The notes under the pieces were generated by a model. It saw only the letters and a list, made by a program, of their open reading frames with translations, was not told where the DNA came from and did no database searches. A stretch of DNA of 44,109 bases, taken from NCBI GenBank assembly GCA_024654065.1, contig JANLIQ010000076.1, forward strand, positions 1 through 44,109, read 5' to 3'. The position numbers and the translations under genes are program-made. The stretch comes from Candidatus Berkelbacteria bacterium. Its GTDB lineage: Bacteria > Patescibacteriota > UBA1384 > 2-12-FULL-50-11. Shown one piece after another: positions 4,531 to 27,454 of this stretch (within the stretch, counting starts at the first letter, position 1; each line of letters opens with the position of its first letter).

Positions 4531-4541
4531 TGCTTAAATGG

Positions 4542-4570: not shown

Positions 4571-4578
4571 ACACTCGA

Positions 4579-4602
4579 ATCTTCGGACCTAATGGAGGAA
4601 CC
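4579..4602 (+). promoter_or_regulatory. Conserved 5' leader with ribosome binding site, copy 1
   Basis: Blocks ATCTTCGG, CCTAA and GGAGGAACC are shared with 29982-30005, giving 22 of 24 identical bases, each immediately before a GATG start. The GGAGGA lies inside the earlier in-frame ATG at 4592, which argues that 4604 is the true start. Confidence 0.7.
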
Positions 4603-4603
4603 G

Positions 4604-4834
4604 ATGCAACAAAACATAAGGGTCACCGAAGGAAGTCCGCAGCTTAAAATGTGGCGACTTGGTTTTTGGGGTGGACTACTTCTATTCGTCCTGGGCGTCA
4701 TCTTGTTCTCGATACCTTGTTTTGCTCAGAGCGGCAAGCTATTCGAGGACTTCTTTCCGCCGGGCTGCCTGCTGATGGCTTTTGGTGGATTAGGCTTGGC
4801 CTACGCGAGTCAAGTTGACCGACCGAAAAGCTGA
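4604..4834 (+). CDS. Small two-helix membrane protein, unknown function
   Basis: 76 residues from ATG 4604; an in-frame ATG at 4592 is rejected because it overlaps the ribosome site. Two hydrophobic segments are visible, one around residues 19-41 (FWGGLLLFVLGVILFSIPCF) and one around 57-68 (GCLLMAFGGLGLAYA), separated by a short acidic/aromatic loop, so a hairpin in the membrane is likely. It has its own strong promoter, a leader shared with the gene at 30008, and its own terminator, in an island between fusA and tuf. No family recognised. Confidence 0.75.
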   Translation: MQQNIRVTEGSPQLKMWRLGFWGGLLLFVLGVILFSIPCFAQSGKLFEDFFPPGCLLMAFGGLGLAYASQVDRPKS

Positions 4835-4858
4835 GACATCGACCTCGGCCACACACAA

Positions 4859-4896
4859 GGCCTTGGGGTGCTAACACTCCAAGGCCCCGTTCTTTT
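4859..4896 (+). terminator. Intrinsic terminator of the gene ending at 4834
   Basis: GGCCTTGG (4859-4866) pairs with CCAAGGCC (4879-4886), with an inner GTG/CAC pairing, then CCGTTCTTTTGC. The palindromic stem could also slow transcription arriving from fusA on the other strand. Confidence 0.8.
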
Positions 4897-4961
4897 GCTT
4901 AATATTTATCCCAAAGCCATAATCACACCCCCAAGGTGTACTAGAATCTGTTTTCTTCTAT

Positions 4962-5114
4962 CTAATAGTGTGGACAACGTGACGAGGTAAACCATTCGGG
5001 ACAACGGGAGAATTCAGGGAAAAATACTGAGCCAAGGATCGCCCCCACTAACGAGGCCGAGATTATCAGAAACCACCAGTAGTGCTTATAGATGAAGGTC
5101 CTAAGCCTCAGCAT
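4962..5114 (-). CDS. Small single-helix membrane protein overlapping the fusA end
   Basis: 50 residues starting at an ATG inside the last codons of fusA (14-bp overlap), read in another frame. The frame continues 139 nt past the fusA stop. One hydrophobic helix is visible ([20 protein letters not shown], about residues 12-31), then a Cys-containing tail ([15 protein letters not shown]). The overlap suggests translational coupling to fusA. A second small membrane protein lies immediately upstream of fusA, so EF-G is flanked by two of them. Coding status is inferred from the frame, the overlap and the coherent membrane helix. No family recognised. Confidence 0.5.
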
Positions 5115-7206: not shown

Positions 7207-7207
7207 T

Positions 7208-7396
7208 CTAGTTTTCTACTCTATTTTTATCAAGGAAGAAGTAGTGAACGACCGAATAAACCAAGAAGATCGCCACAAACATAATAAACGCTTCACGGAA
7301 GTTGACGTCGTCGAATCCAACAAATATCGTGTTAATTATTACACTCAACACTGCCACCATAAGACCGTTTATGAGAGAGTTCTGGCGCTTACTCAT
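7208..7396 (-). CDS. Small two-helix membrane protein between rpsG and fusA
   Basis: 62 residues with two hydrophobic helices (about 9-27, [20 protein letters not shown]; and 35-54, [19 protein letters not shown]) and a charged, positive tail. Its ATG overlaps the rpsG stop as TAATG and its stop is 1 nt from the fusA start, so it is almost certainly cotranslated with the ribosomal genes. A membrane protein in this position is not part of the classical str operon. No family recognised. Confidence that it is a gene is high because of the exact packing. Confidence 0.8.
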
Positions 7397-7869
7397 TAGT
7401 ACCTGGCAAAGTGAGCAAAAGCCCGGTTGGCTTCGGCCATCTTATGTAAATCTTCTCGCTTCTTCATAACCGCACCGGTATCTTCAAGGATATTCTTCAT
7501 TTCGGCATACATTGCATCAGCCATTGGTTTGCCTTTAACGCCACGGCAAGCAGCAATCAACCAACGCATAACCAAAATGACCTTACGGGCAGGTCGAACT
7601 TCCATCGGTACTTGATAGTTAGCGCCACCAACACGACGAGATTTAACTTCAAGAATCGGTGAAGCTTTTTCAATAATTAGTTTCAGAGTGGCTGGAACTT
7701 CCATTTTTTGTTCGGCGGCTAGACGCTCGATAGCTGAATAGACAATTGTAGTAGCAGTTTCTTTTTTACCACCGATCATCACTTTGTTTATAAGTTTCGT
7801 TAACTGCGGATCCTGGTATTTAGGGTCTAAATTTATCGGAGGTCTTTTTATTGTTACTTTTCCACGCAT
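7396..7869 (-). CDS. rpsG: 30S ribosomal protein S7
   Basis: 157 residues from ATG 7867-7869, the usual S7 length. The frame extends 22 codons further to 7935, but that would overlap rpsL by 65 nt and adds residues foreign to S7; the chosen start begins MRGKVTIKRPP, 1 nt after the rpsL stop. Recognisable segments are LINKVMIGGKKETA, RRVGGANYQVPMEVRP, WLIAACR, and the C-terminal KMAEANRAFAHFARY. S7 nucleates assembly of the 30S head and contacts the 3' major domain of 16S rRNA. It overlaps the next gene as TAATG. Confidence 0.96.
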   Translation of the reverse strand: MRGKVTIKRPPINLDPKYQDPQLTKLINKVMIGGKKETATTIVYSAIERLAAEQKMEVPATLKLIIEKASPILEVKSRRVGGANYQVPMEVRPARKVILVMRWLIAACRGVKGKPMADAMYAEMKNILEDTGAVMKKREDLHKMAEANRAFAHFARY

Positions 7870-7870
7870 T

Positions 7871-8287
7871 TTATTTTGGCTTTTTAGCGCCGTATTTACT
7901 TCGGCCTTGGTTTCGATTTTCAACTGCTTCGGCATTCAACACGCCTCGAACAATGTGGTACTTGACACCTGGCAAGTCTTTAACGCGACCGCCCCGGATT
8001 AAGACCAGAGCGTGTTCCTGCAGATTGTGCTTAATGCCTGGAATGTAGGCCGTTACTTCTTGACCGCTAGTTAGACGAACACGAGCAATCTTTCGTAGAG
8101 CCGAGTTTGGCTTTTTTGGAGTTGTGGTTGTAACTTTAACGCAAACACCACGCATAAACGGCCGACCAGCTGGATAATCCACTGGACGGTTTTTGAGTGA
8201 ATTGAAACCACGATGCAACGCCGGGGATTTAGATTTCTCCTTTGTTTTCTTGCGACCGTATTTTACTAGCTGGTTTATGGTTGGCAT
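7871..8287 (-). CDS. rpsL: 30S ribosomal protein S12
   Basis: 138 residues, complete S12, which lies at the decoding centre. The signature [20 protein letters not shown] and [17 protein letters not shown] are intact. The two Lys positions whose mutation usually gives streptomycin resistance (in PKKPNSA and in GRVKDLPG) are wild type here. It starts 31 nt after rpoC and is followed by rpsG. Compared with Escherichia coli S12 it carries a short extension at both ends. Confidence 0.98.
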
Positions 8288-8318
8288 TTGACTATTATAC
8301 CTTGGGGTTTCATTTGGC

Positions 8319-11300
8319 TCAACCCTTATTCCCTGGTGCTACTTTAGACTTTTCGGCAGCCAAACCAACGGTAACTTCTGTTGGGTCAATTTTGACATCC
8401 ACCCCGTAGCCCGTACCTGCCGGGATAAGCTTACCGATAATAACGTTTTCCTTAAGGCCACGGAGGGGGGCAACCTGACCCTTCATTGCGGCTTTAATCA
8501 AGACGCTCGTTGTCTCCTGGAAGGAAGCAGCAGAGAGGAAGGATTTAGTGTTTAGAGAGGCTCGAGTAATACCAAGAACGATTTGTTCGTAGTCAATTGG
8601 AACAGCTTTCTCTTTTTTAAGTCGGAGGTTGATGTTGTCAGACTCCAACTTGTCTATAACCTGGCCGGTTAAGAAGGTTGAATCACCGCCCTGCAGTACA
8701 CGAACTTTGGCAAACATTGCACGAGCAATAATCTCGATGTGCTTTTCATTAACCGCAGCACCGTGAGAAGCGTAGATGTTCTGAACTTCTTTAATAATGT
8801 AGGCCTGGGTTGCTTCTAGACCACGTAGATCAAGAGATTGACCTAGATCAATATGGCCATCTGTTAATTTAGCGCCCTTTTCAACCATATCACCGTTCTT
8901 GATAGAGACGTTTATATCTGGGGAAACAGTGTAGCTTACAGTCACAGGCTCAAGCGAGGTAACGGTAATAGTCTTGCCTTTGATGTTGACACGCCCACCA
9001 ATATTAGAACGGATCGCCTTTTTATCTATTGCCGTTGCAACGGCTTGCTTTGCCTTAACAACATCGCCGTTTTTAACTGATAGTTGGTAGTCCTCGATGA
9101 GCACGAATGACTCTTTTGGAATGTCATCGGAAATTATTTCAATAAGCTGTTTATCTTTGTGTTCACTAAGAAGAGCCTTTCCAGAAATCTCGGCTAGAAT
9201 TGCTGGATTGTGAGGCGGACGAGCTTCAAAGATTTCTTCAACTCGTGGCAAACCAGAAGTAATATCTCCGACAGAAACACCGCCCATGTGGAAGGTTTTC
9301 ATTGTTAGCTGAGTTCCAGGTTCACCAATCGCCTGAGCGGCCATGATACCAACAGCGGTACCTACTTTAACAATTTCGCCACTTGCAAGATCGCGTCCAT
9401 AACATTTCTGACAGATCCCCCAAGGTGCACGGCAGTAGAGAGCAGAACGAACCAAAAGTTCGGTTTTTCCAACTTCATTAAGACCAGCTACGATCTCTTC
9501 AGTAATTTCCTGCCCAGCCTTAAGGATAACTTTTCCATCTTTGCTCTTAACTGTCTCCATGCTTACGCGGCCAAGCAGTCTCTCCAAGAATGACTCACCG
9601 TACTCCTGTGATTCAGATTCACGAACAATATTACCGCGCTCAGATTTACAGTCTTCGATAGTAATTACTAAGTCCTGCGCAACATCAACCAGACGTCGGG
9701 TTAAGTAGCCGGCATCGGCAGTTTTAAGAGAAGTGTCAGACTTTCCTTTTCGAGAACCGTGAGTTGAGATGAAATACTCAAGTACTGAGAGTCCCTCTTT
9801 GTAGTTAGATATAATAGGGACTTCAATGATTCCACCGGCCGGGTTAACCACCAATCCCTTCATTCCAGAAAGCTGTGTCATCTGGTTACTTGAACCTCGG
9901 GCACCTGATGACACCATAGTGAAGATTGAACGAGACTTCGGAAGGTCGTTCATAACCTCTTTCTGAATGCGGTTACGGATCTCAGTCCATTTCTCAATAG
10001 TTAGTTTACGTCGCTCATCGTCGGTAATTAAACCACGTCGGTAACGCTTCATAATCTCATCAACAGCTTCTTCGCCTTCGGCAATAAGTTTGCCTTTCTG
10101 TTCTGGAACGTGAACGTCTGAGATAGACATTGTCATTCCGGATTTCTCAGCGAACTTAAATCCGAGCTGCATTAGATCGTCAGCAACACGGGCAGTTTCA
10201 GCCTGACCGTATATTTTGTAGATGTGACGAATAACTACCTTAAGGCGTTTTGTATCTAATGGCTCGTTGATGAAAACATATCCCTCTGGGAGCACAGCAT
10301 TTAATAGTGCTCTACCGACAGTGGTGTCAATTCGCTTTCCATCACTCATGCGAAGTTGAATTTTTGCCTGAGGGTGAATATTGCCACGTTGGTAAGCAAG
10401 ATCTACCTCTTGTGTTGAAGCGAATGCTCGGCCTTCGCCCTCGACTCCTGCCTGTTCGTTAGTTAAGTAGAAGATACCAAATACGATATCTAGTCGTGGT
10501 GTTACCAATGGCTCACCAGAGGCTGGTTTTAGAAGGTTGTGGCTTGAAAGCATCAAATCGCCTGCCTCTTGTCTGGCTTGGGTGGATAACGGAACGTGAA
10601 CAGCCATCTGGTCACCATCAAAGTCGGCGTTGTAAGCAGCACAAACCAACGGATGTAGCTGTATGGCTTTACCTTCAATTAAAAGTGGGCTGAAAGCCTG
10701 GATACCAAGACGGTGAAGCGTTGGAGCACGATTAAGAAGAACGTGAGCTCCTTTAGTTACGGATTCCAAAATTTCCCAAACTTCAGGAGTACCACGATCA
10801 ATCAAACGAGAAGCGTTTTTAACATTGTGAACGTAGCCTTCGCTAATGAGTTTTGAGATTACAAATGGCTTAAATAGCTCTAATGCCATGACTTTCGGTA
10901 GTCCACATTGATCAAGTTTAAGTCGTGGACCAACAACAATAACGGACCGGCCTGAGTAATCTACTCGTTTACCAAGTAAGTTCTGGCGAAAACGACCCTG
11001 TTTACCGCGGAGCATGTCCGACAATGAACGAGGTTGGCGTCCACCAGCTGTAGTCTGACCCTTGCGAGCAGAGTTATCTATCAAAGCATCAACTGCTTCC
11101 TGAAGCATTCTCTTTTCGTTACGAACAATAACGTCAGGTGCACCCTGGTTCATCAGTCTCTTAAGACGATTGTTTCGGTTTAAAACACGGCGGTAAAGAT
11201 CATTCAAGTCACTGGAAGCGAAACGACCACCATCAAGCTGAACCATCGGTCGCAAATCCGGTGGTAGAACAGGCAATTTACCGATTATTAACCAGTCTGC

Positions 11301-12131
11301 ACGGATACCTGCAAGCTTCATGTCAGTTAAGACACGGAGACGCTTCATCAAACGACGGTAAGTGTTGCTTTGAACATTGCTGGCGTGTGCCTTAATTGCA
11401 GAAATCTCAGCGTCAAGGTCAATCTTTTTCAATAGTTCGAGAATTGCTTCTGCGCCAATAGCGACTTTAATAATATTGCCAAACCTTAATGAAATCTCAT
11501 GGAATTTGGCTTCTGGTAGAATCTGACGAGGCAGTAAGGACTGAAGGTCAGATTTAGTTTGTTTATAGTTTAATTCTAGCTGCTCAAGACGCTCCACGGA
11601 ATCTTTAAGCATTTCTTTTGCGCTCTTATATTCACTCTCTAGCTGAGAAAGCGCTTCAGCTTTAAGCTGTTCGTCAACACCAGTTACCACAAAGCTTGCA
11701 AAGTAGATTACTTTTTCAAGATCACTCACAGAGATGTCAAGAATTGTGCTTAAGATATATGGCACACCACGAACGTACCAGATATGGGCTACGGGTACCG
11801 CTAGATCAATATGACCCATCCGCTCACGTCGAACGGAGCTACGAGTTACTTCAACACCACATTTATCACAGATAACACCTTTGTAACGAATCCGCTTGTA
11901 CTTACCGCAGTAACACTCCCAGTCTTTAGTAGGACCAAAAATCCGCTCATCGAAGAGACCATCACGCTCTGGTTTCTGTGTTCGGTAGTTAATGGTTTCA
12001 GGCTTCATAACCTCGCCGTAAGACCATTTTTCAATATCTTCAGGCGAAGCAACACGAAGACGGAGTCCTTCAAAATTAAGAAGGCTAAATTCGGCTTTCT
12101 CTGGCTTGGTATTTAGTTTTAGTTCGGCCAT
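8319..12131 (-). CDS. rpoC: RNA polymerase subunit beta prime
   Basis: 1270 residues. The N-terminal zinc site has Cys73, Cys75, Cys88 and Cys91 (ECYCGKYKR...CDKCG). The catalytic magnesium loop is [16 protein letters not shown] near residue 500. A second Cys set occurs later ([25 protein letters not shown]). Bridge-helix and trigger-loop segments follow, with [16 protein letters not shown] marking the trigger-loop region. It is shorter than E. coli RpoC (about 1400 residues), mainly because large lineage inserts are absent. Its ATG overlaps the rpoB stop as TAATG, so the two large subunits are made together. Confidence 0.99.
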
Positions 12132-15100
12132 TATTTTGTCTCCTTACTCGCTTCTTTAATTTCTTCTGGTTCTTCGGCTAGTTCTGCTTCGTCCATCTGG
12201 GGTTCTTTTAATTCTTCTGAAGCTAGGTCAAGAGATTCCGCTTCTTCGTCTACTTTCATACCCGAAGCAAAGACTTCAGCCTGCATTAAGGCTCGCTGGC
12301 TTTCCAGCTCCTGCAACCGCTCTTCGTTTTCGATTACTTCAACGTTCAAGCTCAGCCCCTGTAATTCGCGCACCAAGACGGCAAACGACGCTGGAACCTG
12401 TGGTTTCTGGATCTCTTCACCACGGATAATTGCTTCGTAAGCCTTCGCTCGCCCGATAACATCATCAGATTTGATTGTTAGCATTTCCTGTAAGGAATGG
12501 GCTGCCCCGTAAGCTTCAAGGGCCCAAACTTCCATTTCACCGAAACGCTGTCCGCCAAACTGGGCCTTACCACCGAGAGGTTGTTGAGTAACCATTGAGT
12601 AAGGTCCGGTTGAGCGAGCATGCATCTTGTCATCAACAAGGTGAATTAATTTAAGCATGTACTTAATACCGACCGTTGTCTGTTCGTCGTAACCGATACC
12701 TGCTCGTCCGTCACGGAGCTGGATCTTACCGGTCTCAGGCAATCCAGCCTTTTTAAGCTCGGTTACTATATCTTCTACCGGAACACCGAAGAAGGCAGGT
12801 GTTGCAACTTTGTAGCCCAGTATTTTAGCGGCCCAACCTAAGTGAGTTTCTAGAATCTGACCTAAATTCATACGTGAGATAACGCCAAGTGGGTTAAGGA
12901 TGATATCAACAGGTGTACCGTCAGGTAGAAATGGCATATCTGCCTCTGGGAGAACGACTGAAATAACACCTTTGTTGCCGTGTCGTCCTGCCATCTTATC
13001 CCCTACCGTAACTTTACGTAACTGTGCGATCGAAACTTCAATTTGCTGGTAAACACCAGCTGGTAATTCGTCGCCTTTATCTTTTGAGAAGATCTTTACC
13101 TCAACAATCTTGCCGCGTTCACCGTGCGGTAGACGGAGTGAAGTATCTTTTACGTCTTTAGCTTTTTCACCAAAGATTGCTCGTAGCAGTTTCTCTTCCG
13201 CGGTAAGTTCGGTCTCACCCTTAGGTGTAATTTTTCCAACGAGAATATCACCAGATGAACACTCTGCTCCAATACGAACAATTCCTTGTTCGTCGAGATT
13301 TGCTAGAGCTTCATCACCAACATTTGGAATGTCTCGAGTGATTAACTCTGGACCAAGTTTAGTGTCACGAACTTCTGTTGAATATTTCTCAATGTGAATA
13401 GAAGTAAAACGATCATTTCGAACTAAGCGCTCCGAAACGATAATAGCATCCTCGTAGTTGTAACCGCCCCAGCTTAGATATGCGACAGTTACGTTTTGAC
13501 CAATTGCAAGCTCTCCTTGATCTGAAGCCGAAGAGTCGACAATCACCTGGCCTTTAGTAACCTTATCGCCAATCTTTACTGTTGAGCGCTGGTTAATACA
13601 GGTGCTTTGGTTTGAACGAACAAACTTAGATAGAAGGTAAGTTTTTTCCTTAGAACCGGTTTTAATTCGGATCTGCTCACCGTCAGCGTATGTAACTACA
13701 CCGTCATCTTCCGAAACAACTAATTGTCCAGAATCTTTCACAGCACCTTCTAGTCCGGTACCAATAATTGGTGCCTGCGGTCGTACCAGGGGGACTGCTT
13801 GTCGTTGCATGTTTGAACCCATCGATGCACGAGTAGCATCGTTATGTTCAACGAACGGAATTAAAGCAGAGGAGATAGATACAGTCTGTTGAGGAGATAC
13901 GTCGATATAGTCAACTTTGGTTGGGCTTTCAATTAATGGATCACCGTGGCGACGAGCAATAACCTTAGAGCCAACAATGTAGCCGTCTTTATCTAGTTTA
14001 GTTGAGAACGGTGCTAAGGTGTATTTCTCTTCTTCGAAAGCATCTAGATATTCAACCTTACTAGTAACACGAGCTTTCGAGCCTTTTATTTCAATCTTAC
14101 GAAACGGGGTTTCGATGAAGCCATATTCGTTAACACGAGCGTTAGATGCCAGGTAGCCTACCAAGCCAATATTTTGACCTTCTGGAGTTGTGATCGGACA
14201 AACACGACCGTAGTGAGAACGGTGAACGTCACGAACGTCAAAGCCGGCATGTTCTCGAGACAATCCCCCAGGGCCGGTAGCAGATAGAGTTCTTTTATGC
14301 TCCAACTCTGCCAAAGGGTTGGTTTGGTTCATAAACTGGCTCATCTGACTGGATGCGAAGAACTCCTGTAGAATAGCGGCGACTGGACGTGAGTTTATAA
14401 GAGCAATTGGGTTAACCTCATCTGGCTCAGCAATCTGACTCATACGGTCTTTGATAATACGTTCTACACGAAGCAGACCAACACGAATGCGGTTCTGAAC
14501 TAACTCACCGACAGCGCGAACTCGTCGATTCTTTAAATGATCCACGTCATCAGGCAGACTTCCTGGAGTATTGTTTAGACGAATTATCTCTTTGATAGTT
14601 TCAACAACGTCCTCAAGACGTAACACACGATTCTTATCTGTGTTTGGAACGTTCATCTCTAAACGTTGATTGATCTTGTAGCGACCAACACGACCTAGGT
14701 CGTATCGTTTTGCATTGAAAAAGATTGTATCTATATAGCTTTTGGCAGTCTCTGGAGTTACTAAGTCACCGGGACGAATTCGCTTGTAAACCTCAACTAA
14801 CGCCTCTTCGTAAGTAGCAGCAGGGTCACGAGCTAAAGTTGACTCTATATACTGAGCATCTTTATTGGTATCTACGTCCTTAAACAAGGTGGTGATCTGT
14901 TTGTCGTCTAGTTTTGCCAGTGCTCGCAAGAAAGTGGTAATGGGGATGCGTCGTTTTCGATCAACCTTAACCGAAATGACATTGCGAGAGTTCGTTTCAA
15001 ACTCTAGCCATGCGCCACGATTAGGGATGACTTTAGCCCCAAAGAGATTTCTGCCACCAATGGTTTCACTAGTAAACAACACGCCAAATGAACGAACAAT

Positions 15101-15469
15101 CTGGGAAACAACAACCCGTTCGACACCGTTAATAATGAAGGTGCCACGATCAGTCATTAATGGGAAATCACCTAAAAAGACCTCTCCCGTTTTAGTCTTG
15201 TTGGTTAGTTTATTCGTTAGTTTAATTTGGCACCGAAGAGGAGCCTTATAAGAGAGATTCTTGTCTTTAGAAGTCTTCTCGTCGTATTTAGCCGGATCTA
15301 GTGAGTATTTGCCAAATTCTAAGGAAAAGAGCTTACCGGTGAAATCTTCAACTGGTGAGATTTCATTCAAGAGTTCACCAATGCCCTCATCAAAAAGCCA
15401 GCCGTAACTTTTCAGCTGCACTTCAATTAAATTAGAGAGTCCCTCCTGAGCTTCCAATGGGCGAAACAA
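12131..15469 (-). CDS. rpoB: RNA polymerase subunit beta
   Basis: 1112 residues with the complete beta core, including the rifampicin-pocket segment (residues 372-402), GRVCPITTPEGQNIGL, GDKMAGRHGNKGVIS and the C-terminal clamp segment GGQRFGEMEVWALEAYGA. An acidic tail of about 50 residues rich in Glu/Ala ends the protein. The frame begins at TTG 15467-15469; AGGAGG lies 13 nt upstream, so an upstream non-ATG start such as CTG at 15478 is possible. Several rifampicin-contact positions are altered (see findings). It leads the rpoB-rpoC-rpsL-rpsG-fusA unit from a promoter at 15588-15615; no rplJ-rplL precedes it. Confidence 0.98.
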   Translation of the reverse strand: MFRPLEAQEGLSNLIEVQLKSYGWLFDEGIGELLNEISPVEDFTGKLFSLEFGKYSLDPAKYDEKTSKDKNLSYKAPLRCQIKLTNKLTNKTKTGEVFLGDFPLMTDRGTFIINGVERVVVSQIVRSFGVLFTSETIGGRNLFGAKVIPNRGAWLEFETNSRNVISVKVDRKRRIPITTFLRALAKLDDKQITTLFKDVDTNKDAQYIESTLARDPAATYEEALVEVYKRIRPGDLVTPETAKSYIDTIFFNAKRYDLGRVGRYKINQRLEMNVPNTDKNRVLRLEDVVETIKEIIRLNNTPGSLPDDVDHLKNRRVRAVGELVQNRIRVGLLRVERIIKDRMSQIAEPDEVNPIALINSRPVAAILQEFFASSQMSQFMNQTNPLAELEHKRTLSATGPGGLSREHAGFDVRDVHRSHYGRVCPITTPEGQNIGLVGYLASNARVNEYGFIETPFRKIEIKGSKARVTSKVEYLDAFEEEKYTLAPFSTKLDKDGYIVGSKVIARRHGDPLIESPTKVDYIDVSPQQTVSISSALIPFVEHNDATRASMGSNMQRQAVPLVRPQAPIIGTGLEGAVKDSGQLVVSEDDGVVTYADGEQIRIKTGSKEKTYLLSKFVRSNQSTCINQRSTVKIGDKVTKGQVIVDSSASDQGELAIGQNVTVAYLSWGGYNYEDAIIVSERLVRNDRFTSIHIEKYSTEVRDTKLGPELITRDIPNVGDEALANLDEQGIVRIGAECSSGDILVGKITPKGETELTAEEKLLRAIFGEKAKDVKDTSLRLPHGERGKIVEVKIFSKDKGDELPAGVYQQIEVSIAQLRKVTVGDKMAGRHGNKGVISVVLPEADMPFLPDGTPVDIILNPLGVISRMNLGQILETHLGWAAKILGYKVATPAFFGVPVEDIVTELKKAGLPETGKIQLRDGRAGIGYDEQTTVGIKYMLKLIHLVDDKMHARSTGPYSMVTQQPLGGKAQFGGQRFGEMEVWALEAYGAAHSLQEMLTIKSDDVIGRAKAYEAIIRGEEIQKPQVPASFAVLVRELQGLSLNVEVIENEERLQELESQRALMQAEVFASGMKVDEEAESLDLASEELKEPQMDEAELAEEPEEIKEASKETK

Positions 15470-15587: not shown

Positions 15588-15615
15588 ATAATAACTGAAT
15601 CGAACCGTTTGTCAA
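15588..15615 (-). promoter_or_regulatory. Promoter of the rpoB operon
   Basis: Minus strand TTGACA (15610-15615), 16-nt spacer, TATTAT (15588-15593). Predicted start near 15581 gives a leader of about 110 nt with AGGAGG near its end. Confidence 0.8.
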
Positions 15616-15654: not shown

Positions 15655-18600
15655 CTAACTCAGCACCTCAAGCAGGTTATTATAGCCAGCGTTTTTAGCA
15701 AAGTTGTTCAGACTATAAAGGTTTTTTAATAATAACGTGATCCGTAGAGGTACTTTTAAGCCGACTTCTTTAATCTTCGTAACCAGATCAAATATTCCCT
15801 CTGGATTCTCAGCAATAGATACCGAGTTAACACCGTTTGATAATAAAGCCATAAGCTCTTCTTTGGAAAAAGTTGTATCATGATTCTCTGGCTGTCGAAG
15901 GAGATATTCGGCTAAAGCTCCCCTGACATTATCACCTGTTAAGCTCCCGAACAGTTGACGGTCATCATCTGATAGCTCTAAATAAAAATTTCGATCCAAG
16001 ATAGCCACCTTCTTATCTTCGGTTATTCTGAAGTTACCCGGGTGAACGTCGGAGTGTACGACACCGCTGACTATTTGATAGAGATAGTTGGAGGTAACTA
16101 GTCGAACGACTTCTTTCATGTCCTGTTCGGACAGTATTCCTTCTTGGTAATTTGTTGAATCGCCAACGCGAAACTGCGTCAGATTCTTTCCTTCTATAAA
16201 CTCCTCGACCTTGACGTACTTACCGCTATTCTCATCCAAACGAGGTACTTGAATCTGATAATCGCTTCCCTCAACCTTAAACCCGTTCCAATTTGCGTTG
16301 AATTGCCTTTCATTCTCGATAAAGCGCTCGTCATTAATATCCGACAAAAGCCATTCCTCGAGATCGGCAAGTAGATGTTCTTTAACCATCTTGTAATGAA
16401 GGTTGTCTGGAGACTTTTTTATAAGACGATCGGCAGTACGATGGGCAAGGTTCATTGACTCTCGAATTCGCTGTTCGGCATTCGGATTAAGAACTTTTAC
16501 TACCGTAGGGGTCTCGACGGACGGATTGTCATGGCGATAGACTGTTAAAAGCGAGCCGCCGCCGACTCGCGCCGAAAGCATACTGTCTTCCTGGAGTAGG
16601 TCCGGTCTTTCGCGTTGAATTGTACGGAAAGCTGATAATTTTGATTGGCCTTTAATTGAGTCGTACACGGCGGAGAATTTCTGCTCCACGGCCGGATCAA
16701 TATGGACATATTGTCCGAGTAGTTGCAAGAAGCGAACGCCGGGAGCGCCAAGCGTCGTAGCGACTTCGATCATTGCCTCGGACTCCTCCATCTTTTCAAA
16801 AATAACCCCCTCACGATAAGCCTCGGGCAGAGACCGTAGCACTTCCTGCTCCCCGAAGTTAATCGGTCGCTCCGAGTTCTCGGTGCCGATTTTTCCGTGG
16901 AATGACCAACGGTATGTTTTTTCTACAGCAGCGTCACCAAGTGTTTCATAGCCTGGAACCTCTACGGGCAGTTCTCGATCCAGTTCGTCTTCGAATCCAG
17001 AACCCTCCTGCTTGTACTCGTCGCGGATCGTCTCTTTGATAATCGAGCGGTAATCGGCTGACTCGGTCGGACGTTGAAGAATTGCGCGAGCCAGTAGAGG
17101 GCTTAGAAGAAAGTAGAGTTCGTCTTTATTGGCTGCACCCGCTAGTGACTCCATAATCTCATCCACCATTTGCACGCGTTCAGGCTTCAGTTTGACGTGA
17201 TTGTCGAATAAGCGATGAGCAACCTCCATAGTATTGTGTCGGGTATTTAGAACACCATCCTCGGGTTTGGTTAAAAGCTTTCGAACAATGCCGTGCCGTT
17301 CGACGATGTTGCTTCGATACAAACGCTCAAGCAGGTCGTCTATACGGACATATAATTGTCCTCTGTATGAATCGACATCCTGACGCAGAGCCGGTTTGTC
17401 TTCTATCCAACTATTAATTTTTTCAGGCGAGTCAAAATAGGTAAGCGTAGACGGATCAAGTCGTCCGGCGACATCTGATTCTTTCGTAATTACACCCCAC
17501 CAGTGTTCAATTAAAATACGGGCAAAACCCTGTTCATCCTCCCGAGTTTCGGTAAGCGCCAGAAGCGAGCCACTTGGATCTTTCAGTATCTTTTCCAGCA
17601 CCGCGTCTGCTCCGGTGAGCGTGCCGATTTCCTTCGAAGATTCTTGGTATGAATCCAGAATATATTTTTGAACTTCGATCATCTGCGCAGGAGTTTGAGC
17701 CAGATTCTCTGTCAGGTGGTCGATAAGTTCCGGCGAGTCTCCGACGCCGATCTTTTTATCCACAAAAAGAAGAGTCTTCAGCTCGCCATAAGTAACACCA
17801 TGAGCCAGCTCATTCGCGGCGAAAGCTTTAACCCGCCGTCGGATATCCGAGTCGATGAATAAGTCTGCCAGCAACATCTTTCTTTCGGGTAATAGGTTCG
17901 GGTTCCATAATTTTTGAATAACTTCCTGAATCGTTTCTAATAGTTTCTCGACATCATAAATGTCGGAATTAAGCCGCGGCCATGAGAATCTGGTGAATTG
18001 ATACCAGCGTTCCAATCCGCTCCACGCTTTTTCATTTTCGAGCTTGATTGCTTTTTCCATGAGGTTGGTGAAAAGATTAGGCCATTCATACAAACCCTTC
18101 ATCCATTGGCCACTGCCTTCAAAATAAGAGTCGCTCAAGCTCTTAAACAGCTCCAGGAGCGCCGCCTCCTTTTCTGAATCATCTTGCGAGTAAATACTGT
18201 CAAAAGCGCGGATGGTAGAGTTACAGATATCGCTCCAAAGTGAACTGTTAATATCGTAATGTCCCGCATCTAGCATTAATTCCTTATAAAGATTCAAAAC
18301 TCGCGCCTGCGACTCGGGCTGATTATTATCGATCTTCAGTCGATCATCTTCTTCTAGTGCAAGTAGAATGTTCAGGTAGGTAGAACTAGCATCCATCGGC
18401 GCCATTGAAGAGCAATTCTCTCGTAAGATAGTCGGGAATCTCTCCATATTAGTCGCGATATAGCTGATAATTTTTTCGTCCGCATCTCCGGACACTTCGT
18501 TGCTTCCACCGGTTGTTTTGTTGAACTGTTTCAGTAGCTGCGAGAACTCATCGGACTCTACTCTCTCTTTTGAAACGATCGAATCTAACACCCGGCGTAC

Positions 18601-20154
18601 TCCATCAATCCCCTTGGTCGAACCAGTACGCTCGAGAATTTCGATAATGGTTGCTTCATTACTGTCACTGATAGATGTTGCGACGTTGTTGATAAATGTT
18701 TGTTGATTAAAGAAGCGGTCGTAGCCGAGCTGGAGCATAAAGCGATCAACAGTAAGTGCAAGCTTTTGAAGCTCTAAGAGAAATATTCCGGGGTCAAACT
18801 CTCCGTTTGCTTCGTTCGTAAAAACGGCCGCAATTTTATCAAGATGGACAATGTAGTCCTCTAGCCGCGACTGGAAACCGTCGGAACAGAACAAGAAATC
18901 AATATCGCCTTTTTGCCATAACTCTGGATCGAAAATATTGCCGATGCTCTGCAATCGATTTTCGCTGGCATCATCTACTATCTCTAATGATAGAAAGTCA
19001 CCCTCTTTAGATTTGATATCAGCAACTTTCGAGTATTTTTGAAGAGGAATAGCTAGTCCTATCTCGAGCAAGGCGAATAACTGTGGTGCTTTTAATGATT
19101 CTGGAAAGTTATTCGCGTTTTGCAAGCTGTCGAAGATTTTTTGGCTGGCTTCTTGGTATGCGATAATTTCGAAGGAAGTAGTCGTTGTATTTTCCGCGCT
19201 TGTTCGTATCATCTGCTTCTGTTCGTCTCGGCCATTATTTCTAATATGTCGCTGAACTAGGCGATAAGTCTCTTCCCTCCATTTGGCAAGGGCTTCTGTC
19301 GCAAGAAGTAAAGATCGAGCGTCGCCCGTCCTTGTTAAGTTTGTCGCCAACTCCTCAACAGCCTGTCGCTCCATCTTCGCTAATGCCTCAAATTCCCGAT
19401 AGAAAGGTTTTTCCTCTAGTTGCGTTAACTCTTGGGTTGACTCCTTAAACTCGGATGAGAGTGGACTCGATTCTTGAGAGATATTTTCTATATCAAGAAA
19501 GTATTTCAGTGACAAAATATTCAAACGCCTGTCTTCGAGACTCCCATGTGCAACGGACCAGCCACCTTCTTCTGTCTGAAGCCGCTCAAAGAGTGAAGCT
19601 CCGGCTAACGGATTATAGCCTGATTTTTCTAGGAAATTCACAACGCTGACCAAGTCGGCTTCTACTTCGTTCATTCGGTCAAGTCCGGCGTGTGATTTGA
19701 CCCGATCTAGCGCTCTCTTGCTAAGCCCTTTATTCATCTGTCGAGCGGCATGCCCGGCTTTAACATGCTGACCTTCATGGGCAAGAAGAGCCGCGAGCTC
19801 GTCTTCGGTTGTCACCTTTTGAAGAATTCCAGGGTGGATGATAATGTGGCCATCAGGCAGAGCAAAAGCGTTGGCGATCGAATTTCCTCGACTGACCCTT
19901 ACCTTGTAAAGACTATCTTCCCCAAACAGTCGACTGCTGATCTCATCAATTTTAGCTTGAGTCGGACTATCTTTTGGGGCAAATCCGTAAACCGCTTCTA
20001 GTATTTTGACTTCTTGGTTGCTTGCCGCCGATAAATAGCGTTCGTCTACATCTTCGTGAGTTGTTCCTTGCTCGTTAAGCTCCTTCGGTTGCAACGTAGA
20101 CTCGTCCGAAGGAGGGACGGCATGTAATCCCAGGTCTCGAGACTCTATACTCAT
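15655..20154 (-). CDS. Giant fusion: M48-type zinc protease plus UbiB-like kinase fold
   Basis: 1499 residues with no signal peptide or membrane segment, so probably cytoplasmic. Residues about 45-220 are an M48 peptidase: NAFALPDGHIIIHPGIL, zinc motif HEGQH (126-130), the third ligand in NEVEAD (Glu163), and the later SLEDRR motif. Residues about 230-1130 are long, acidic and helical, with no domain I recognise. Residues about 1139-1499 resemble the UbiB/ABC1 atypical kinases: LLGQ (1145-1148) where UbiB has KxGQ, GGGS (1198-1201) replacing the Ala-rich loop, Lys1220 in VVKVLNP, Glu near 1280, the catalytic loop HSDVHPGN (1367-1374), and LDRN (from 1386) in place of the DFG motif. Whether it phosphorylates anything is uncertain. 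UbiB proteins normally act in lipid/quinone metabolism and M48 enzymes are usually membrane-bound, so this soluble combination is unusual. A -10-like TACTAT (20163-20168) lies 8 nt before the ATG. It lies between rpoB and obg. Confidence 0.88.
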   Translation of the reverse strand: MSIESRDLGLHAVPPSDESTLQPKELNEQGTTHEDVDERYLSAASNQEVKILEAVYGFAPKDSPTQAKIDEISSRLFGEDSLYKVRVSRGNSIANAFALPDGHIIIHPGILQKVTTEDELAALLAHEGQHVKAGHAARQMNKGLSKRALDRVKSHAGLDRMNEVEADLVSVVNFLEKSGYNPLAGASLFERLQTEEGGWSVAHGSLEDRRLNILSLKYFLDIENISQESSPLSSEFKESTQELTQLEEKPFYREFEALAKMERQAVEELATNLTRTGDARSLLLATEALAKWREETYRLVQRHIRNNGRDEQKQMIRTSAENTTTTSFEIIAYQEASQKIFDSLQNANNFPESLKAPQLFALLEIGLAIPLQKYSKVADIKSKEGDFLSLEIVDDASENRLQSIGNIFDPELWQKGDIDFLFCSDGFQSRLEDYIVHLDKIAAVFTNEANGEFDPGIFLLELQKLALTVDRFMLQLGYDRFFNQQTFINNVATSISDSNEATIIEILERTGSTKGIDGVRRVLDSIVSKERVESDEFSQLLKQFNKTTGGSNEVSGDADEKIISYIATNMERFPTILRENCSSMAPMDASSTYLNILLALEEDDRLKIDNNQPESQARVLNLYKELMLDAGHYDINSSLWSDICNSTIRAFDSIYSQDDSEKEAALLELFKSLSDSYFEGSGQWMKGLYEWPNLFTNLMEKAIKLENEKAWSGLERWYQFTRFSWPRLNSDIYDVEKLLETIQEVIQKLWNPNLLPERKMLLADLFIDSDIRRRVKAFAANELAHGVTYGELKTLLFVDKKIGVGDSPELIDHLTENLAQTPAQMIEVQKYILDSYQESSKEIGTLTGADAVLEKILKDPSGSLLALTETREDEQGFARILIEHWWGVITKESDVAGRLDPSTLTYFDSPEKINSWIEDKPALRQDVDSYRGQLYVRIDDLLERLYRSNIVERHGIVRKLLTKPEDGVLNTRHNTMEVAHRLFDNHVKLKPERVQMVDEIMESLAGAANKDELYFLLSPLLARAILQRPTESADYRSIIKETIRDEYKQEGSGFEDELDRELPVEVPGYETLGDAAVEKTYRWSFHGKIGTENSERPINFGEQEVLRSLPEAYREGVIFEKMEESEAMIEVATTLGAPGVRFLQLLGQYVHIDPAVEQKFSAVYDSIKGQSKLSAFRTIQRERPDLLQEDSMLSARVGGGSLLTVYRHDNPSVETPTVVKVLNPNAEQRIRESMNLAHRTADRLIKKSPDNLHYKMVKEHLLADLEEWLLSDINDERFIENERQFNANWNGFKVEGSDYQIQVPRLDENSGKYVKVEEFIEGKNLTQFRVGDSTNYQEGILSEQDMKEVVRLVTSNYLYQIVSGVVHSDVHPGNFRITEDKKVAILDRNFYLELSDDDRQLFGSLTGDNVRGALAEYLLRQPENHDTTFSKEELMALLSNGVNSVSIAENPEGIFDLVTKIKEVGLKVPLRITLLLKNLYSLNNFAKNAGYNNLLEVLS

Positions 20155-20225: not shown

Positions 20226-21188
20226 TTAGACAATTTCAAGCAAGCGGGTCTGAAGCTCTTTTAGGTTAGCTCCAGTCGTGGCACTGACCAGAACTGCTTG
20301 AGGATATTTTTTCTGCATAGCTTTTGTTTCGTCAAGCGAGAGTAGGTCGGACTTATTGATGACCACCAATCGCGGTTTATCAAGTAAGGTCGGATCGTAC
20401 TTCTTTAGTTCAGTTAAAACGGAGTTTTCTGATCGCTTGAGTTCCGGCGCAGTACCATCGAGTACATGCAGCAGTACCTTGACGCGCTGGGTATGCTTGA
20501 GGAATTCCGCACCCAGCCCTTTGCCTCGATGAGCGCCTTCGATTAAGCCTGGTAGATCAACCAAGGTTAAGGATTGCTCGCCAAGCGGTAAGACCCCTAG
20601 AACTGGTTCAGTGGTGGAGAAATTATAGGCACCGATTCGGACATTAGCTCCAGTTAGAGCCTTGATTATTGACGATTTGCCCGAGCTTGGCTCGCCGATC
20701 AGGGCTACATCGGCTACTAATTGTAGCTCCAATTTAACATTCAAAACCTGTCCGGGCGTGCCTTTGGTGGCTTCGAATGGATTCTGATTGGTCGACGACA
20801 CAAAATGGACATTACCTAGTCCGCCCTGGCCGCCTCGAGCAATGACGATACTCTCGTCGCTAGTGGTTAAGTCGGCAATGACTCGATTATCAACAAGATT
20901 GATTACCCGAGTTCCGGTAGGAATAAGTAGCTCTAAGTCAGCGCCGGCCGAACCGGTCTTTCTTTTATTGGCGCCGTTGTGGCCCCGTTCGGCCTTAAAT
21001 GTTTTTCGAAAACGAAACGAGGCTAAGGTATCTAGGTTGTGAGTACTGCGCAAAATAATACTACCGCCCCGACCACCGTCGCCACCCTCAGGACCGCCCC
21101 TAGCCACAAACTTCTCTCTTCGCCACGCAATCACTCCATCGCCACCGTCACCAGCTTTGAGCTCAATCTCAACTGAATCTACCAACAT
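20226..21188 (-). CDS. obg: Obg-family GTPase
   Basis: 320 residues. The N-terminal Gly-rich Obg domain is clear (GDGGDGVIAWRREKFVARGG, then GGDGGRGGSI, and ARGGQGGLGN). The G domain has G1 GEPSSGKSS (about 165-173; the family more often has GxPNAGKS), G3 DLPGLIEGA, G4 NKSD and G5 SATTG. It ends right after the G domain, so the C-terminal OCT domain of Bacillus Obg is absent, as in many short Obg proteins. Obg binds 50S particles and acts in late ribosome assembly. Its ATG overlaps the preceding gene's stop as TAATG, which couples this conserved GTPase to a secreted surface protein. Confidence 0.96.
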   Translation of the reverse strand: MLVDSVEIELKAGDGGDGVIAWRREKFVARGGPEGGDGGRGGSIILRSTHNLDTLASFRFRKTFKAERGHNGANKRKTGSAGADLELLIPTGTRVINLVDNRVIADLTTSDESIVIARGGQGGLGNVHFVSSTNQNPFEATKGTPGQVLNVKLELQLVADVALIGEPSSGKSSIIKALTGANVRIGAYNFSTTEPVLGVLPLGEQSLTLVDLPGLIEGAHRGKGLGAEFLKHTQRVKVLLHVLDGTAPELKRSENSVLTELKKYDPTLLDKPRLVVINKSDLLSLDETKAMQKKYPQAVLVSATTGANLKELQTRLLEIV

Positions 21189-22552
21189 TAACTTGAGGTT
21201 CCGAAAACGATCTTCAACAATTCACGCAGGAGAACGGGCGGATTCTTAAGGATATTAGTGTCAGGGTTGATATTGAAGGTTTCGGTCAACAGACCGGGGT
21301 TTGGGAGTAAAATATTGCCTTTGGCTATAAAGATACCATTCACAGTTCCTTTTTTTATGTCGTTATTCCCAAAAATAATGTTGCCACCTAAGGAAATATA
21401 CGTTCCACAGTCAATTTTCAGATTGCCATTCGAAGGAGCCTCAAAGACAATGTCACCTTCTGTGATTAAGGCAAATCGCGTTCCAGAAGCACAAGAAACG
21501 CCACCAAGAAACTTGACTGGCATTGAACCTTCAGTCGCATGTCTTCTAACGGAAATTGTTCCTGCTCCAGAAAATGTAGTTCCCTTTTTTTCATCTTGAC
21601 CAATTTTGTAAAAACCATCAGGCGAATCAACAAAGACATTCCACAGCCTTCCCTCTGGAGGAGTCGAAAATGTATTCATATCTAGTTTATGTGGAATATA
21701 TTTATCGGCAGAGTTGAGGTTCCAATTTGCGTCATTATAGATAATAACCTCATTGGCATTATAAGATTTATTAGAATTAAATTGATTAATTAATGTAGAT
21801 CCAATTTTAGTCCAGTTAATGGTAGAAATACGATCTTTATCGTAATTAGAAATAGTTTCTCCATTCACGGATGTACCAACTAAATTTCCAACTGCTAGCG
21901 CGGATTCAGATTGAATGAAGCCGTCCAACGTTCCATTTAAAGCGGCTGTGTTACCACTAATAATAATTCCTTTATTAAGGGGGATTGTCTGGAACAGATA
22001 TGCAGATAAATTACGACTACCTCCTTTTACTGTAGTAATCGTCTTGAGACAAATATGAGTTGTGCCAACCCCGCATCCCGGTCCAGATAGGAAGGTAGTA
22101 GGATGAGATTGCCCTGATGGAGGATTCTCTAAATAGCTCTTCACCTTCTCGATATCTTCTTTACTAACGTCTGTATCAAATGTTAATCGGAAGTCTTTTA
22201 ACACAGGAAGTTCATCTTTCTCAATACCTTTAATGGATATCTTATAATATTCTCCATCAGCACCACCATTAATAATACTGGTGCTGATGGTATGGTTAGG
22301 AAAGCTACCCTGACCCTCAGTGAGGGTAAACTTATTATTATTGAAAGTGTAAGTAACCCCAGCTTTCGGAAAACGAAGTTTCGCTGGCATCATAATCAAT
22401 TTCGGGGGTAACTCAATGATAATCTGTGCTGTCCTTGGTGGTAGTCGTGAGAAAATAAACATGCTTCCCCCCGGTGGTGGTCCGTATGCTTTCGCCGACG
22501 GAATTAAGATAAAAATAAGTAGCAAGGAGAATAGAAACCGTTTAATCATCAT
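21188..22552 (-). CDS. Secreted surface protein, module B copy 1
   Basis: 454 residues with a clear signal peptide (MMIKRFLFSLLLIFILIPSAKA, then YGPPPGG). Two parts follow. The first (about 25-155) is beta-rich. The second (about 165-454) resembles a repeating-strand or beta-helix fold, with FSTPPEGRLW, TFSGAGTISV, GGNIIFGNN and VNGIFIAKGNILLP, ending in RELLKIVFGTSS. The second part is clearly related to the C-terminus of the 826-residue protein at 24974-27454, which ends in QELLRIVFTTSS. Its start overlaps by 11 nt the preceding membrane-anchored gene, and its stop overlaps obg. I infer export and a cell-surface or pilus-like role; no named family recognised. Confidence 0.8.
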   Translation of the reverse strand: MMIKRFLFSLLLIFILIPSAKAYGPPPGGSMFIFSRLPPRTAQIIIELPPKLIMMPAKLRFPKAGVTYTFNNNKFTLTEGQGSFPNHTISTSIINGGADGEYYKISIKGIEKDELPVLKDFRLTFDTDVSKEDIEKVKSYLENPPSGQSHPTTFLSGPGCGVGTTHICLKTITTVKGGSRNLSAYLFQTIPLNKGIIISGNTAALNGTLDGFIQSESALAVGNLVGTSVNGETISNYDKDRISTINWTKIGSTLINQFNSNKSYNANEVIIYNDANWNLNSADKYIPHKLDMNTFSTPPEGRLWNVFVDSPDGFYKIGQDEKKGTTFSGAGTISVRRHATEGSMPVKFLGGVSCASGTRFALITEGDIVFEAPSNGNLKIDCGTYISLGGNIIFGNNDIKKGTVNGIFIAKGNILLPNPGLLTETFNINPDTNILKNPPVLLRELLKIVFGTSS

Positions 22553-24973: not shown

Positions 24974-27454
24974 TCAAGACGAGGTGGTAAAAACAATCCT
25001 CAGCAGTTCCTGGTAGAGTGCGGTTGGATTACTTGCAAATAAAGAATCGTATTCAACATTAAATGGACCAGTCAACGAAATTTTACTGGGTAATCTAATT
25101 GAATTCTTAGCAATAAAAATACCTTTAACTTGACCACTTGGAACATTTTTGAAAATTATTGTCCCATCATTACTACTTGAGCTCCGACTTAAAGCAGTAT
25201 AAGCACCGCAACCAACGAAATCAGTATTGATATTTATTTTCCCGTGAACGATAAAACCGAGACGAGTACTATCCTCACAAAGAAGTCTTCCGTTGATATT
25301 AAGATCCCCATTTATAACAATCGTACCAGCTCCATGGAAAGTAACCGAACCTAGAGTTAAGCTATTATTTTCGATTTTCCAAATTTTACCCTCAGGAGGG
25401 GAAGAAAAAGTACTACTATTACTATTAGTTGGAATATTTGTATCTGAGTTTAAAAACCAATTAGCTCCATAATAACTTCCGCCACTTACCCCAGTACCAA
25501 GACCTTGACCCTTTGCATAAAGAGCACCCAATTTGAGACTAATTCGGTTCCAATCAAATGTTTCTGATTGACCATCAATATAATCATCGAGTTGATTAGT
25601 CGAACCCTGAACATTTACCGAACCTCCTACTGCTATTGCCTTAGAGTCAAGCGTGAAACCAGCTACTTGTTCGGGTGCAGCCACATTGCCTTCGACATTT
25701 ATTTGGCTAACATCGATCGGTATTCTTTGTAATAAAGTTTGGTTAATTGGGTTTCCTGGACGCTCGGTGGGATTATTTAGAGTTAGTCTAGATCGCAAAC
25801 ATAGGTTAGTCGCCACATCTTCTTGAGCTGGAACACAATCTGAGTCTCCAAGAAAAGTATGATCAAGAGATTGTGGTTGGTTTCTAAGAGATCCGACAAT
25901 ATTATTGAAAACAGCAAACGTCACCCGTTCTTTATATGTTAACCTCACGCCCCAATTCTGAATTCTGGGATCATCTAAATTAATTCCGTCACCCTTAATA
26001 ATATCTTTTATGGTTAGCCGGAAGGTATTATCAACTAAGTTGTTATTGACCCGATCCACACTTATTTTTGGTGAACAAAGACTGTTTGTCATAAAACAAA
26101 GGCTGGTTTCGTCGAATGTATAAAGCTGATCACCAAACCGTAATCGATCAGGGGTATAAATCTGGCTCGTAGGTAAGTTGATCTGCAAACTAGCCGGATC
26201 TGGCAATATCCCACATTTGTCTCCGGGAAATGATTTAAGCGAACTAATTGGGGTTCTCCAAACTTTAGCAACATTTGTCGAACCTTGATTAGTACTGCCC
26301 GTTCCTCGACCCTCGGCAATAAAGATATTGTCTTTATGAATGGCTATATCAGTAACCGAGTAGCCTCTAAACTCCGTATCCCTCCGATCGATAGAACGAT
26401 AGAAGTATGAATCGGAGCCTACCGGCAAAACATGTGAAGGACAAGCCCGATAAAAATCTCCCTCTTGCGTCCCGATCATTAGCTGACGATCAGTCAATGC
26501 CCGCAGGGATGTGACAGCACCCTTACTGAAACCATAGCTGTTGCCGGGGCAATGTTGTGAGCTTCCCTCCAGGAAGCAAGTCGAGTTCAATTTTACATAA
26601 GTAACCCCATCCCAAGTTTGGTAAAGAGTATCAGATACGCCATTTGCCCTTTTTGATAAACCGACGTAATTAATGCCAAATAATTCGGCGGACGAGCCGA
26701 TACATTCTGTCATTGTTCGAGGAAGACCATCTGGGAAATATGATTTCCAGCTATTGGCATTGCCATTGTCAACAGATCTGATAAGTCGACAGCCAACGGT
26801 TCCTTGGCCTGAATTCAAAAATGATGCAAACAGAGTCTGTCCGATTGAGAAAATGTGTTGAATAGCATAATAGCCGCTGCTACCTAGACCATCAGTAACT
26901 ACCTGTTCCCAATTGGGGTTTCGTGGATCTTCAGTATTTTTCAGCCGCCAGATTTGAGCTCCATCGTAATTACGGGTTCCGGCATAGAGATAGTCACCGA
27001 AAACTGCAAGTGACGTAATCTCTTTATTTCCAGGATTAGGCCAGGGGGGAGACGGTAATTTAGTGTTGAACCATGTATTTAAATTCGGGTCAAACGCAAA
27101 CACATATGACTTGCCCGCCCCTATGGCTCGTGATCCAGCGTAAACATACTTCGTACCATCGGTATTAGGAAACTCAACCAAAGAAGTAGTTTTATCACCA
27201 CTAACACCACCTAAATTGCCTGAAGGGAAAAATAGGTTGGTCGTTTGACGAACCTGGGCACCGTTGGTATTTTCCGTTCCAGCCATTAAGGTATCTCCGT
27301 ACGAAAGAAGTTTCGTAGCACTAATATTTTCTGATTGTCCAAAACCAAAATCACTAGCACTACTCCAATTGTCAGCTGCTTGAGCTGTCATCGGCCTACT
27401 AAAGACGCTAATAACTATTAAGACTGCCAATAAGACTTTACTTACTTTCTTCAT
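24974..27454 (-). CDS. Secreted beta-propeller-like plus module B protein, copy 2
   Basis: 826 residues. Signal peptide MKKVSKVLLAVLIVISVFSR...AQA, cut near residue 27. Residues about 40-430 contain repeated blade-like segments (GDTLMAGTENTNGAQVRQTT; GDYLYAGTRNYDGAQIWRL; GQTLFASFLNSGQG), so a beta-propeller is likely. A middle region follows, then a C-terminal strand-repeat region (about 590-826) with FSSPPEGKIWKI, TFHGAGTIVINGDLNING, VKGIFIAKNSIRLP and a closing QELLRIVFTTSS, related to the 454-residue protein at 21188-22552. It overlaps the preceding short anchored gene as ATGA. I infer a large cell-surface adhesin or structural protein; function is not known. Confidence 0.8.
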   Translation of the reverse strand: MKKVSKVLLAVLIVISVFSRPMTAQAADNWSSASDFGFGQSENISATKLLSYGDTLMAGTENTNGAQVRQTTNLFFPSGNLGGVSGDKTTSLVEFPNTDGTKYVYAGSRAIGAGKSYVFAFDPNLNTWFNTKLPSPPWPNPGNKEITSLAVFGDYLYAGTRNYDGAQIWRLKNTEDPRNPNWEQVVTDGLGSSGYYAIQHIFSIGQTLFASFLNSGQGTVGCRLIRSVDNGNANSWKSYFPDGLPRTMTECIGSSAELFGINYVGLSKRANGVSDTLYQTWDGVTYVKLNSTCFLEGSSQHCPGNSYGFSKGAVTSLRALTDRQLMIGTQEGDFYRACPSHVLPVGSDSYFYRSIDRRDTEFRGYSVTDIAIHKDNIFIAEGRGTGSTNQGSTNVAKVWRTPISSLKSFPGDKCGILPDPASLQINLPTSQIYTPDRLRFGDQLYTFDETSLCFMTNSLCSPKISVDRVNNNLVDNTFRLTIKDIIKGDGINLDDPRIQNWGVRLTYKERVTFAVFNNIVGSLRNQPQSLDHTFLGDSDCVPAQEDVATNLCLRSRLTLNNPTERPGNPINQTLLQRIPIDVSQINVEGNVAAPEQVAGFTLDSKAIAVGGSVNVQGSTNQLDDYIDGQSETFDWNRISLKLGALYAKGQGLGTGVSGGSYYGANWFLNSDTNIPTNSNSSTFSSPPEGKIWKIENNSLTLGSVTFHGAGTIVINGDLNINGRLLCEDSTRLGFIVHGKININTDFVGCGAYTALSRSSSSNDGTIIFKNVPSGQVKGIFIAKNSIRLPSKISLTGPFNVEYDSLFASNPTALYQELLRIVFTTSS

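Follow-up and report, generated by a model that had tools for sequence, protein, structure and literature searches.

An M48 peptidase and a divergent UbiB/ABC1 kinase-like domain joined through a long helical middle in a Candidatus Berkelbacteria protein and in other bacteria

A contig of Candidatus Berkelbacteria (JANLIQ010000076.1), of which a stretch of 44,109 nucleotides was analyzed (the window), carries a long gene between obg and rpoB. This locus raises the question of whether a zinc protease and a kinase-like protein truly form one polypeptide there and, if so, what such a protein might do. The gene (15655..20154; all window coordinates given here refer to the minus strand) is a single unbroken frame of 1499 codons. 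Its 1499-amino-acid (aa) product has an M48 zinc-peptidase domain at the N terminus and a UbiB/ABC1 kinase-like domain at the C terminus, separated by a long helical middle, an architecture that recurs in other genomes. Each domain was detected independently of the other, above the curated Pfam cut-offs: Peptidase_M48 (PF01435) at residues 70-142 (54.7 bits against a cut-off of 20.3; 1.5e-14) and ABC1 (PF03109) at residues 1197-1402 (54.5 bits against 22.9; 1.2e-14). No membrane segment is present, the highest 19-residue Kyte-Doolittle mean being 1.3. An earlier note on this DNA had placed the gene at the same coordinates and had proposed the M48 peptidase (HEGQH, ExEAD), the UbiB/ABC1-type fold (VVKVLNP, HSDVHPGN, LDRN) and the lack of a membrane segment, all of which agree with these results.

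Queried with the whole protein, neither the 55 class genomes nor the 380 phylum genomes returned anything comparable, and viral and genome contigs likewise gave no match. When the C-terminal part was used as a query, it matched a 1799-codon frame in another genome, whose product carries M48 at the N-terminal and UbiB at the C-terminal end, and a Pfam ABC1 scan of the 380 phylum genomes exposed further long frames. Besides the window, M48 and UbiB were read together in five genomes (G264, G115, G385, G073, and G102). A genome-contig scan with a three-sequence alignment identified G264 as Daviesbacteria, G385 as WS6 OLB20, and G251 as Uhrbacteria, and added a Roizmanbacteria protein of 1739 aa. 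This brings the total to seven more fused or split Patescibacteria proteins, all in the order M48, approximately 850 to 1400 mostly helical residues, and UbiB. Uhrbacteria encode the M48 part (922 aa) and the UbiB part (1426 aa) as two adjacent genes, with an ATGA overlap of stop and start codon that looks like translational coupling; a frameshift error is a less likely cause of the split. Among L057 to L072, the long ABC1-like matches are mostly Ser/Thr or other kinases without M48. In a separate observation, the Patescibacteria genome G200 encodes two paralogues of approximately 1370 aa (L060 and L061) with a Ser/Thr-kinase-like domain in mid-protein and no other assigned sequence.

The same architecture was found in Omnitrophota, where a profile of the pre-kinase and kinase regions matched 27 of 193 genomes. 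Some of these matches are ordinary standalone UbiB frames of approximately 555 to 579 codons; many others lie in frames of 2,000 to 12,257 codons. An M48 domain precedes the start of the kinase profile by approximately 850 to 1400 residues in 17 of 20 long frames, and the three without M48 are all cut at their 5' ends. Both Pfam M48 and Pfam ABC1 scored above their cut-offs in each of six Omnitrophota frames scanned. The M48-UbiB frames come from 13 genomes, counting that of the first Omnitrophota protein to be found (L076), which is at least 3987 aa long. The L076 frame (3-11966, plus strand) runs off the start of its locus; on either side of the module it encodes additional regions, among them a hydrolase-like N-terminal part and, beyond the kinase, hydrophobic segments. 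The genome paper on this phylum describes giant ORFs (open reading frames) with few annotated domains and poor conservation, and M48 and UbiB are absent from its main text (PMC10066038).

A profile built from 25 modules other than the window matches the window protein at residues 59-305 (39.6 bits) and 1105-1406 (85.9 bits), in that order; the E-values are for a single sequence, and the bit scores carry the evidence. Since a window-free profile finds both ends in order, the window protein belongs to the same M48-helical-UbiB module. The search for further two-domain proteins that the earlier note had proposed thus yielded them in both Patescibacteria and Omnitrophota. The note had also considered that the two ends might be separate genes joined by a sequencing error, which is contradicted by the same fusion in many other genomes. 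Because the same ordered architecture is found in many independent genomes, we conclude that the fusion of M48 with a divergent UbiB domain is real and no assembly artefact.

Across 26 modules, the distance matrices of the M48 and kinase domains are strongly correlated (Mantel r = 0.754, reached by 0 of 2000 permutations), a correlation to which shared overall divergence contributes. In the alignments, both catalytic centers are conserved in nearly all of the 25 other modules. The window copy is among the most divergent modules, together with L058 and L056.

The M48 peptidase domain spans residues 59-217 (19504..19980). By sequence, the N-terminal end has its nearest solved structure in the M48 peptidase 3c37 (1.9e-10), with BepA in second place. 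The zinc-binding and catalytic motif HEGQH (residues 126-130; 19765..19779) has its two histidines and its glutamate kept in 25/25 other modules. It is followed by NEVEAD (residues 162-167; 19654..19671), in which the third zinc ligand E163 and D167 are each kept in 24/25. The window M48 part was aligned separately from the global hmmalign of the modules; H126, E127, H130, E163, and D167 are aligned both with five relatives and with the 25 modules. Further on, HGSLEDR at residues 203-209 (19528..19548) probably corresponds to the M48 active-site plug motif HPx4R with its proline replaced by glycine and with H203 and R209 correctly spaced; each of the two is kept in 22/25 modules. The earlier note was right to read SLEDRR as part of M48, and the stretch is more precisely the end of this putative plug, H203-G-SLED-R209. 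In BepA, the HPx4R plug obstructs the substrate site and contributes a fourth ligand to the zinc (PMC7950410). Taken together, these residues give a competent-looking M48 catalytic site. Other M48 proteins of the same class, 494 to 574 aa long, were also considered; they are separate proteins that share nothing with the fusion beyond M48, and most of them have hydrophobic or export-like stretches at the N terminus.

At the other end, a UbiB-type N-terminal extension (residues 1105-1190; 16585..16842), which falls within the window-free profile match, precedes the UbiB/ABC1 kinase-like core (residues 1197-1402; 15949..16566). The catalytic lysine K1220 lies in VVKVLNP (residues 1218-1224; 16483..16503) and is kept in 23/25 modules. 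E1276-R-F, the ExD counterpart, and the alpha-C glutamate E1282 (16309..16329) follow; both glutamates are invariant in alignment A4, and the window has Phe for the Asp of ExD. The six residues from E1276 to E1282 equal the spacing of E405 and E411 in ADCK3 (PMC4718504). D1369 and N1374 of the catalytic loop HSDVHPGN (residues 1367-1374; 16033..16056) are present in 24/24 aligned modules. The DFG counterpart is D1387-R-N (15988..15996; LDRN, residues 1386-1389), which keeps the metal-binding Asp (24/24); its last position is Gly in 23/24 modules and Asn in the window and one other. The kinase-like residues K1220, E1282, D1369, N1374, and D1387 are thus all present in the window protein.

In the UbiB/ABC1 motif tests, the window protein has RFLQ in place of KxGQ, GGGS in place of the Ala-rich loop, and DRN in place of DFG. 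The KxGQ counterpart, R1141-F-L-Q1144 (16723..16734), keeps only the Gln, its Lys being replaced by Arg; across the family, the Lys is found in 22/25 modules and the Gln in 25/25. The earlier note had described all three motifs as altered, and this stands. Its "LLGQ" was out of register: both the profile alignment and alignment A4 place KxGQ at R1141-F-L-Q1144. The loop G1198-G-G-S1201 (16552..16563) corresponds to a family consensus of G-S/A-A-S, with Ala at position 1200 in 22/25 modules. The motif divergence is therefore mostly specific to the window copy, and the family retains the UbiB motifs. Position 1200 precedes the loop serine, just as Gly52 of PKA precedes a serine, and window G1200 may for this reason be the equivalent of ADCK3 (COQ8A) A339. 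In ADCK3, A339 has been equated with PKA Gly52, and the A339G change reverses the preference for ADP and enables autophosphorylation (PMC4718504). The protein scores far below the NCBIfam cut-offs for both parent equivalogs, with 43.8 bits against 487.55 for UbiB (TIGR01982) and 42.6 bits against 570 for BepA (NF052400), and it is therefore neither a ubiquinone UbiB nor a BepA.

The middle region (residues 236-1095; 16870..19449) is almost all helix in low-confidence AlphaFold2 (AF2) secondary structure. The 25-module profile gives weak colinear matches to it at residues 590-718 and 809-855. The AF2 models, computed from six-sequence alignments, each have a mean pLDDT (predicted local distance difference test) of approximately 54; some segments of the M48 core and of the kinase C-lobe reach 70 to 88. 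In fold searches with these models of modest confidence, the N-terminal half matched 3c37 (8e-6) and then BepA, and the first three matches of the C-terminal half were the UbiB-family structures 7cz2, 5yjz, and 5yk1. The earlier note's description of 900 unassigned residues also holds: apart from a helical-scaffold character and remote homology at the two edges, nothing was assigned there. Between Daviesbacteria and Roizmanbacteria, the middle is 20 to 28% identical, compared with 43 to 65% for the M48-bearing and kinase blocks. By this comparison, the middle is the fastest-evolving part, lying between two conserved enzymes.

As the earlier note had said, the gene sits between obg (20226..21188, upstream) and rpoB (12131..15469, downstream). 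The check for conservation beside rpoB had a negative outcome, as six family relatives have rpoB immediately after obg. A same-genus genome with a 97% identical rpoB has an unrelated, oppositely oriented TolB-like gene at this place, and the spot therefore takes up different genes. The fusion gene at this site is an insertion specific to the genome of the window. Elsewhere, close relatives of the G115 and G073 genomes (including same-genus genomes in the case of G115) were without the gene at the threshold used, and the neighbors of the Patescibacteria copies show no conservation, with no conserved secretion or toxin genes among them. Given these patchy loci and the absences in relatives, the gene is accessory and patchily distributed. 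PADLOC returned only generic kinase matches and no specific defense system, PHROGs gave only generic kinase or M48-range matches, and the kinase profile had two weak matches among viral contigs.

What would such a protein do? The reading that we prefer, at a probability of about 0.45, is that of a soluble, cytosolic M48 protease on a helical scaffold, whose plug opens according to the nucleotide state of its UbiB domain, transmitted through the scaffold. The M48 site would rest closed by its own plug, with H203 and R209 acting as does HPx4R, the source of a fourth zinc ligand, in BepA, and the helical middle would bind and position client proteins. Binding or turnover of ATP by the UbiB domain, or its autophosphorylation, perhaps upon binding of a lipid or client, would alter the scaffold, and this change would open the plug. 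The pairing, its order, the conservation of both active sites, the co-divergence of the domains, and the fast-evolving helical middle are observed; the cytosolic location, client binding by the middle, and nucleotide gating are inferred. Such gating, which the earlier note had offered as one reading, gains plausibility from the conserved pairing, from the correlated divergence of the two domains, from the split operon version, and from the known regulation of M48 by its plug. Several points weigh against it. The evidence for regulation of one domain by the other is indirect, and the low whole-model AF2 confidence makes inter-domain contacts unreadable. The window kinase has lost consensus residues of DFG, ExD (ERF), and KxGQ, and its domain could be a nucleotide-binding pseudokinase or inactive. 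Moreover, this copy is highly divergent and without close relatives, and selection on it is not measurable.

Other explanations account for part of the same evidence. The kinase and the protease might act in parallel on clients held by the scaffold, with no gating, the former phosphorylating or modifying them in another way and the latter cleaving them. Both active sites are kept in nearly all modules, plastoglobule proteomes hold ABC1 kinases as well as an M48 peptidase (PMC3635846, PMC9725166), and the GGGS loop of the window matches the autophosphorylation state of COQ8A A339G (PMC4718504), all of which would suit such a bifunctional modifier. Trans-phosphorylation has, however, been shown for neither UbiB, Coq8, nor COQ8A (PMC7263595). 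The window copy also lacks the DFG glycine. Plastoglobule-like particles are not known from Patescibacteria, and on balance we consider this arrangement rather unlikely. Ultra-small, host-dependent bacteria could instead use the protein against or inside other microbes, the middle being a fast-changing recognition part. The extremely patchy occurrence, with absence from same-genus genomes, the fast evolution of the middle, and the presence of the module in the giant ORFs of a phylum that shows signatures of predation or symbiosis (PMC10066038) point this way, as do the five or more paralogous M48-UbiB giant proteins (L129, L133, L134, L138, and L139) of the Omnitrophota genome G833. Yet nearly all Patescibacteria copies are without a membrane segment or a signal-peptide-like hydrophobic start, and neither the neighboring genes nor PADLOC link them to secretion, toxins, or a specific defense system, which leaves a role in conflict quite doubtful.

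A quality-control chaperone-protease of the BepA type, in which the only task of the UbiB domain is to sense or carry prenyl lipids while the protease clears misfolded envelope proteins, would fit the coupling of M48 to a helical (TPR) scaffold in BepA (PMC7950410) and the place of BepA among the best fold matches of the N-terminal half. BepA is periplasmic, however, while the module proteins show no export signal by hydrophobicity and no TPR family match in Pfam, and we regard this role as improbable. That chance or misassembly joined two unrelated genes is hardly credible: the protein has no close relative in the 380 phylum genomes and the gene is missing at the obg-rpoB locus of relatives, but the 1499-codon frame is intact and the same domain order is found in many independent genomes.

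When compared to known systems, the UbiB/ABC1 family (COQ8, ADCK; PF03109; Rv3197, 5yjz; MSMEG_1954, 7cz2) shares with the window protein the core with its Lys, alpha-C Glu, HxDxHxxN, and metal-binding Asp, the N-terminal extension with a KxGQ-type motif, and the six-residue distance between the GQ-type and alpha-C glutamates. The window domain differs in lying behind an M48 protease and a stretch of approximately 900 helical residues, in having no membrane segment, and in its changes of KxGQ to RFLQ, ExD to ERF, the Ala-rich loop to GGGS, and DFG to DRN. Escherichia coli BepA (M48 and TPR) has the same HExxH, third-ligand Glu and following Asp, probable plug H-x5-R, and peptidase N-terminal to a helical solenoid; unlike BepA, the window protein has no visible signal peptide or TPR match, carries Gly for the Pro of HPx4R, and adds a C-terminal UbiB domain. 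The plant plastoglobule, where the M48 protease PGM48 and UbiB-family ABC1K kinases share one compartment, is the closest functional parallel; these are distinct proteins located on a lipid droplet rather than parts of one polypeptide, and the resemblance is one of pairing only. Many Omnitrophota giant ORFs (PMC10066038) contain the M48-helical-UbiB module, although the window protein is far smaller. Both parent families are already known; no published description of the pairing was found in literature searches, whose scope left out preprints and most subscription papers.

Some further features of the locus were recorded. A promoter-like site ahead of rpoB, TTGACA-16-TATTAT (15588..15615), is a consensus match only. 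Beside obg, 21188-22552 and 24974-27454 encode exported proteins with a common C-terminal motif, GIFIAK...LP...ELLxIVF.TSS; they apparently form a small surface-protein family that is present in family relatives too. The gyrA gene (32377-36111) contains an insertion of approximately 370 to 390 residues that starts with Cys, ends with ...FVHN-S, and has HNH-like stretches, consistent with an intein carrying a probable homing endonuclease. The TolB-like gene in the same-genus obg-rpoB gap encodes a lipoprotein (L088 5245-6246, minus strand). In the family relative G004, rpoB is present as two adjacent frames (L091 4427-6664 and 6668-7768, minus strand), either a split gene or an assembly frameshift.

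The recurrence of the M48-UbiB pairing with both active sites kept, patchy and spread over distantly related Patescibacteria and the Omnitrophota giants, suggests an undescribed two-enzyme machine. A bolder proposal, which we put forward only tentatively and consider unlikely as a whole, is a new class of ATP-gated soluble M48 metalloproteases with a de-repressed UbiB domain and a fast-evolving recognition scaffold, patchy in host-dependent nanobacteria and serving cell-cell interaction within the Omnitrophota giants. Few kinase-like proteins are as common in microbes as UbiB proteins, whose targets are still unsettled; a repeated natural fusion of UbiB to a protease may offer proteolysis as a read-out of the nucleotide use of the UbiB domain. 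The window copy would naturally carry the glycine loop that, when introduced into COQ8A by engineering, released autophosphorylation. For Omnitrophota, the module places recognizable enzymes in giant proteins with few annotated domains.
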